From: Anaerotignum sp.
GTDB taxonomy: Bacteria > Bacillota > Clostridia > Lachnospirales > Anaerotignaceae
Length of the DNA stretch: 34,749 nt
NCBI GenBank assembly: GCA_028710085.1
Contig: JAQUSU010000014.1
Span: 1 to 34,749 of the forward strand
Direction of reading: 5' to 3'
Shown here piece by piece: positions 484 through 34,646 of this stretch. The position numbers were made by a program, and so were the translations under genes. The number at the start of each line of letters is the position of its first letter. Positions within the stretch are counted from its first letter, which is position 1. The notes below the pieces were generated by a model. The model was not told the origin of the DNA and ran no database searches. It saw nothing but the letters and a program-made list of their open reading frames with translations.

Positions 484-510
484 AACGGTGATTGTTTTTC
501 AATCGCCGTT
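484..510. repeat. left terminator-like palindrome flanking element copy 1 (AACGGTGATTGTTTTTCAATCGCCGTT)
   Basis: Inverted repeat read directly; matches 685-711 with one difference (GTG versus GCG). Confidence 0.85.
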
Positions 511-684
511 CAGACTGTCGAAAAACCTTGGGCGCCGCCCAAACCTGCTTGCTTTTTGTAAAAAGCAAGACCAAAAACTTATATATAAACCGCATATTCA
601 TGGGGGTTATAACGGGTCAAGGGCGAAACCCTTGTAGGTGTTTGAGGGCAAAGCCCTCAAGGTTTTGACTTTATCGACACACTG
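511..684. mobile_element. MITE-like non-coding hairpin-rich element, copy 1 (174 bp)
   Basis: Imperfect terminal inverted repeats: CAGACTGTCGAAAAACC at the left, CAGTGTGTCGATAAAGTCAAAACC as the reverse complement of the right end. Internal hairpins include TTGGGCG/CGCCCAA, CTTGCTTTTT/AAAAGCAAG, CAAGGG/CCCTTG and TTGAGGGCAAAGCCCTCAA. Related copy at 34372-34604. Confidence 0.75.
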
Positions 685-718
685 AACGGCGATTGTTTTT
701 CAATCGCCGTTTTTTTTA
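685..718. terminator. bidirectional intrinsic terminator between convergent genes (right flank of element copy 1)
   Basis: AACGGCGATTG-TTTTT-CAATCGCCGTT followed by a T-run, located just past the stop of the minus-strand CDS 716..949. Confidence 0.8.
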
Positions 719-10335: not shown

Positions 10336-10584
10336 GTTGTGACATAGAGTGTTGAGGCAGAAGGTTGCCAAAAGCCTGAAAAAACAAGGCTTGCGGGTGT
10401 TTCTGCGGAGCGATGTCCAGTTCAAGAAACCGGGCGACAAGGTCACTGTACTGAATATTAGGGATAGATTACCCTTTCATGGGGTAGTTAGTCGTGTCCG
10501 CCGTTGCAGGATACACCCGGATAAGTGTGCAGTCACCACTTGTCGTGCTGAAATCAAAAGTACGAAAAGGAGGGGACTTTTTTT
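10336..10584 (+). ncRNA. structured 5' leader of the S10 operon (candidate ribosomal protein leader)
   Basis: About 250 nt untranslated; nested helices GCAGAA/TTCTGC (10357-10362/10401-10406) enclosing AAGCCT/AGGCTT (10372-10377/10387-10392), plus TACCC/GGGTA and GTGTCC/GGATACAC hairpins. Confidence 0.55.
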
Positions 10585-34342: not shown

Positions 34343-34371
34343 AAGTAGGTACCTATTCGGGTACCTACTTC
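34343..34371. repeat. left terminator-like palindrome flanking element copy 2 (AAGTAGGTACCTATTCGGGTACCTACTTC)
   Basis: Inverted repeat AAGTAGGTACC/GGTACCTACTT; duplicated in expanded form at 34606-34646. Confidence 0.85.
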
Positions 34372-34604
34372 CAGACTGTCGAAAAACCTTGGGCGTCGCC
34401 CAAACCTGCTTGCTTTTTGAAAAAAGCAAGAACAAAAACTTTTATTTAAACCGCATTTTTATGCGGTTTCTAAAGGGTCAAGGATGCAATGGCAAAGAAG
34501 TGCCATCTGTCCGTAGGACAGCTTTGCTGTGCAAAGTGCTGAACGAAACCCTTGTGGGTGTTTGAGGGCAAAGCTCTCAAGGTTTTGACTTTATCGACAC
34601 ACTG
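34372..34604. mobile_element. MITE-like non-coding hairpin-rich element, copy 2 (233 bp)
   Basis: Same ends and internal hairpins as 511-684, same orientation, with an extra block of about 60 bp at 34484-34543. Confidence 0.75.
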
Positions 34605-34605
34605 A

Positions 34606-34646
34606 AAGTAGGTACCTATTTGGGTACCTATTTGGGTACCTACTTC
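34606..34646. repeat. right palindrome flanking element copy 2, with an extra 12-bp unit
   Basis: AAGTAGGTACC-TATTTGGGTACC-TATTTGGGTACC-TACTTC. Confidence 0.8.

Follow-up and report, generated by a model that had tools for sequence, protein, structure and literature searches.

The window considered here, the whole stretch of DNA that was analysed, comprises 34,749 nucleotides of a contig from Anaerotignum sp. Near its left edge lie two convergent genes, ORF 3-470 on the + strand and ORF 716-949 on the - strand, and between them is a strongly self-pairing segment (481-714; MFE as RNA -105.5 kcal/mol, z -9.9). Its core is a 174-bp element without an ORF of its own (511-684, + strand), delimited by a left terminal inverted repeat, CAGACTGTCGAAAAA (511-525, + strand), and a right one (670-684, - strand; reverse complement CAGTGTGTCGATAAA). 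Abutting these repeats, and bracketing the element exactly, are two 27-bp copies of a terminator hairpin, AACGGYGATTGTTTTTCAATCGCCGTT, which are 26/27 identical and form a direct repeat (D4; 484-510 on the left, 685-711 on the right, neither assigned to a strand). The right copy, also detected by a terminator scan, is followed by a + strand T-run that extends to 717, and the left copy retains the A-run 481-485, a T-run when read on the - strand; the outer half of a bidirectional terminator thus survives on either side.

The second locus, near the other end of the window, has the same architecture with a different hairpin, AAGTAGGTACCTATTCGGGTACCTACTT, whose copies again form a direct repeat. 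Its left copy (34343-34370, no strand assigned) is separated by one additional C from a 233-bp form of the element that carries an extra internal 59-bp module (34372-34604, + strand), and the right copy (34605-34645, no strand assigned) has one additional internal repeat unit. The first-pass annotation, made from the sequence alone, had described the first locus as a non-coding element with terminal inverted repeats and a terminator palindrome on each side, and the second as flanked by another, likewise duplicated palindrome; all of this is borne out. Its remark that only the right copy has a T-run is correct for the + strand. Elsewhere in the window there is an S10-Clostridia ribosomal protein leader (10344-10440; Rfam RF03136, 47.4 bits).

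Counted by pattern search only, the element core has 78 occurrences in the draft genome (2.47 Mb), and the reversed pattern gave none, which excludes chance. Both ends could be placed by the terminal inverted repeats in 45 copies. When the 50 bp to the left of each of these was compared with the 50 bp to its right, the flanks matched (alignment score of at least 12) in 30/45, against 2.0% for pairs taken from different loci. A hairpin with its foot at the junction (score of at least 8) was seen on the left in 25/45 copies and on the right in 30/45, the corresponding figures being 1-5 of 43-45 at positions shifted by 60-400 bp and 1-2 after shuffling; hairpins on both sides together with a direct repeat were found in 21 copies. 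T-rich tails follow 25 of 31 right hairpins and A-rich heads precede 21 of 27 left ones. The hairpin sequence itself differs at every locus. Flanks that match each other, are palindromic and are specific to their locus were just what the annotation had anticipated, and the outcomes it had named as fatal, one palindrome common to all loci or a majority of copies without duplicated palindromic flanks, did not materialise: duplicated flanks, for the most part palindromic, accompany the majority of copies whose ends are recognisable. A clear duplication is missing in about one third of the copies, some of which consist of a single hairpin fused to the element end; decay, end-hairpin fusion or recombination between copies accounts for these.

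The copies in this genome are modular. In L014, L018, L019, L023, L027, L030, L031 and others, either an extra hairpin module of ~59 bp (TGCAATGGCAAAGAAGTGCC...) or another module of ~60-90 bp (CTCACTGCCCAAGATAGGGCAGAC...GCAAAAGTGATGACC) lies at fixed internal places; some copies have no terminal inverted repeats. Near-identical hairpins, GGTGTCGACTTTGTCGACACC, are moreover scattered over 15 places in the genome, and the similarity of their arms to the element end (GTCGATAAAGTC) raises the possibility that some terminators originated from such ends.

At each of the three loci examined in sister genomes (the window locus, L026 and L020), there is an orthologous empty site with one hairpin. For the window locus, a single hairpin stands between the two genes in G004 and G007 (AAACGGCGATTGGCTTACAATCGCCGTTT and AAAACGGCTATTGATAATCAATAGCCGTT), at the place matching the duplicated pair. 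For L026, a single hairpin of the AGGCGGACA..TGTCCGCC type is present in G004, G005 and G007, and for L020 a single hairpin is present in G003. The hairpin therefore belongs to the host and was doubled upon insertion. The view that the flank is not part of the element and is a target duplication of an entire terminator hairpin is in this way confirmed by the locus-specific hairpins and the single-hairpin sites in close relatives. Other genomes are occupied at the same hairpins: at the window locus, G001 and G005 carry other subtypes of the element and G006 another insertion, and in G003 an intact right hairpin stands next to a decayed insertion and a decayed left hairpin; at L026, G001 has a different element with the common CAGACTGTCGAAAAACC end. 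Different elements at one hairpin across sister genomes indicate that the terminator has been targeted repeatedly. Being short (174-233 bp), non-coding, multicopy, ended by inverted repeats and accompanied by a target duplication and by empty sites in relatives, the element is a MITE. With a terminal inverted repeat and a target duplication present, it is neither a group IIC intron of the kind found at terminators (the window also has no Rfam group II match) nor an IS200/IS605-derived PATE, which by definition has subterminal palindromes and neither of those features (PMC3119063).

An autonomous partner with the same ends, which the annotation had proposed to look for, exists both in this genome and in a sister species, and belongs to the IS1182 family. 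The Anaerotignum genome contains IS1182-family transposase fragments. At C84 the IS starts at CAGACTGTCGAAAAA, directly after the hairpin AAGCCGCGATATTTTATCGCGGCTT, and the IS ends at C59 and C72 carry the same terminal repeat; each of the three abuts a different hairpin. In C84 and C59 the ORF is interrupted, close to its start, by the same in-frame stop. The draft genome yielded no intact full-length IS, and all three copies are broken off at contig ends. The sister species Chakrabartyella piscis BP5G (G002), to whose genus the analysis assigns the draft genome, has 11 full copies at 10 distinct sites, each 1483-1484 bp long with the terminal inverted repeat CAGACTGTCAAA and a 473-aa transposase; its terminal repeat CAGACTGTCAAAAAA was counted with the ends shared by MITE and IS1182. 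The transposase (P0001) matches NF033551 (IS1182, NCBIfam) with 378.5 bits against a cut-off of 270 and contains the DDE domains PF13751, PF05598 and PF01609. Every one of the 11 lies between two copies of a terminator hairpin, which are identical in nine cases (20-31 bp); of the inexact pairs, that of L111 matches at 33/35 positions and that of L112 has small offsets, with 18/23 matches in ungapped register. Two of the copies, L101 and L103 (at 18 kb and 47 kb), lie ~29 kb apart with identical flanks, so that the surrounding region is either duplicated or repeated by the assembly. Judging from the matching ends, an IS1182-family element is the likely transposase source for the MITE. The IS1182 relative L095 in G005 was rejected as a partner, the first half of its protein being only 24% identical to P0001. 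Also set aside were ISEfa7-like elements of enterococcal plasmids: L271 has a CAGACTGTAGACAAAG end and no clear duplication, and L269 is without convincing ends.

The same behaviour extends to relatives in the Clostridia. At 38 distinct IS sites the direct repeats are 20-41 bp long (median 29) and are the hairpin itself: they are centred on the dyad, 91% of the foot-aligned positions are paired, and the length of the duplication tracks that of the hairpin over the whole range. In many cases further A:T pairs could extend the stem past the end of the duplication, which implies that the cut is not placed at the outermost possible base pair. A staggered cut followed by fill-in predicts duplicates in direct orientation, and these were found at 39 of 41 IS loci (none inverted, two ties) and in 29/29 MITE copies. 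The automatic repeat finder favours long repeats, but the identical script returned 7-9 bp non-palindromic direct repeats for another IS1182 subgroup with terminal inverted repeats like GAGGGCACTGAAAAAC (L234, L236, L242, L244), and so it does not force hairpins. In the transposase tree the hairpin-duplicating elements fall within a single 73-row branch (SH-aLRT 96), apart from the doubtful L238 and some rows with wrongly chosen ORFs (L142, L207, L212), whose branches are very long; the assignment to one clade is based on the remaining rows. The GAGGGCACTGAAAAAC-type subgroup is on a separate branch. The IS1182 relatives L149, L159, L160, L169, L170 and L194 have complete ends but a left hairpin unlike the right one, a pattern that recombination between IS copies would produce. 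In L202 and L212 the right-hand loop is the left-hand loop in reverse complement (AGAT / ATCT), which suggests that the hairpin copies occasionally undergo conversion or inversion.

We consider it very likely that the window element is a MITE of a hairpin-targeting clade of the IS1182 family, inserted by a DDE transposase that is supplied in trans and duplicates the whole terminator hairpin. Such a transposase would position the ends of the element at the dyad of a terminator palindrome that has probably been extruded as a cruciform, and would link the 3' ends of the element to the hairpin's 5' foot, one on each strand. The joining points would then be one whole hairpin apart, so that gap filling would copy the entire stem-loop and leave one complete terminator on each side of the element; convergent genes would each keep a terminator, and the insertion should be nearly neutral. 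The sequences show that whole hairpins of no common sequence are duplicated directly, over a length that follows the hairpin and is centred on its dyad, and they also show the empty sites and a matching autonomous IS. The cruciform substrate, the attack at the 5' feet, the mobilisation of the MITE in trans by an IS1182-family transposase and the near neutrality are what we infer from it. The enzyme seems to recognise the shape of the DNA rather than its sequence; the structure-recognising mechanism suggested in the first-pass annotation is in this sense strongly suggested. With rather less assurance, we think it probable that the stagger is set by the target throughout this IS1182 clade, whose transposases would measure from one foot of an extruded DNA hairpin to the other and always duplicate one complete stem-loop, copying terminators as the elements spread and insulating both neighbours. 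The MITE copies without a clear duplication and the related IS loci with unlike hairpins on their two sides require secondary recombination or decay.

Hairpin extrusion would be unnecessary if the transposase read a short sequence, or the A-tract/T-tract context, and cut with a long, variable stagger. Many duplications do begin with A and end with T, and A:T pairs are common at the foot of the hairpin, but the duplication is centred on the dyad and its length tracks that of the hairpin across the range of 20-41 bp, and several sites (L163, L165, L207) have no A:T pair at the foot; we regard this explanation as unlikely. It is more improbable still that the element inserted between pre-existing tandem terminators, or beside one terminator with gene conversion later making the second copy. 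The paired hairpins of a locus evolve together in sister genomes, and hairpin plus terminal inverted repeat make up a long inverted repeat able to convert; however, the empty sites hold one hairpin, which rules out pre-existing tandem terminators, exact direct repeats end at the element ends in 9/11 C. piscis copies and at most other IS sites, and the inverted loops that conversion between inverted copies would yield are preferred in 0/68 informative pairs. Replacement of the stem-loop with loss of the target hairpin, as in IS1272/TnSha1, would involve the same IS family and a similar kind of target, but here the hairpin is kept and doubled, the opposite outcome, which refutes this reading for the present copies. 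Finally, although the palindromes abut the terminal inverted repeats at most copies with recognisable ends, the idea that they are part of the mobile element can be practically dismissed, as the hairpin differs at every locus and is present without the element at orthologous empty sites.

Duplication of the target hairpin, our preferred reading, suggests a natural route for placing DNA between genes with a terminator left at either end, as well as a way in which terminators are multiplied in Clostridia genomes. The usual description of DDE transposases gives them a fixed stagger and hence a target duplication of fixed length. Here the secondary structure of the target would dictate that length, which makes structure-dependent target choice directly testable, with the IS of C. 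piscis and its insertion sites available as substrates.

With respect to known systems, the SMR-A elements of Haloquadratum (PMC3119063) resemble the present MITE in being short (~110 bp), in having terminal inverted repeats and in inserting into palindromes; they differ in that they produce no target duplication, have no known related transposon and target IS605/PATE palindromes instead of terminators. The GAGGGCACTGAAAAAC-type subgroup belongs to the same NCBIfam family and is set apart by its short, non-palindromic repeats and its separate branch. The first-pass annotation had considered the behaviour unusual and knew of no named family that shows it. The parent family, IS1182, is known, and within it IS1272 is already known to target terminator hairpins, which it deletes. 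IS1272 and TnSha1 share with the present elements an IS1182-family transposase and inverted-repeat targets of no primary sequence specificity, several of them confirmed terminator hairpins (PMC5678879, PMC4923244). Wan 2017 and Furi 2016 cite Siguier et al. for IS1182-family members with palindromes as targets (according to Wan, with no detailed data given), and the exact duplication rule may already stand in Siguier or ISfinder; according to a 2025 paper, target duplication or deletion can accompany the action of IS1182 transposases or be absent, and these enzymes may recognise a DNA structure. Whole-hairpin duplication is thus a variant of known IS1182 behaviour, of which earlier database notes may exist. 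The principal difference is one of outcome: IS1272 removes the hairpin wholly or in part and leaves no target duplication (Wan 2017, PMC5678879), a deletion at terminator hairpins likewise reported by Furi 2016 (PMC4923244), whereas the elements described here duplicate the whole hairpin, providing evidence for a pathway that Wan et al. (PMC5678879) had only sketched, as a hypothetical pathway b in their Fig 13.
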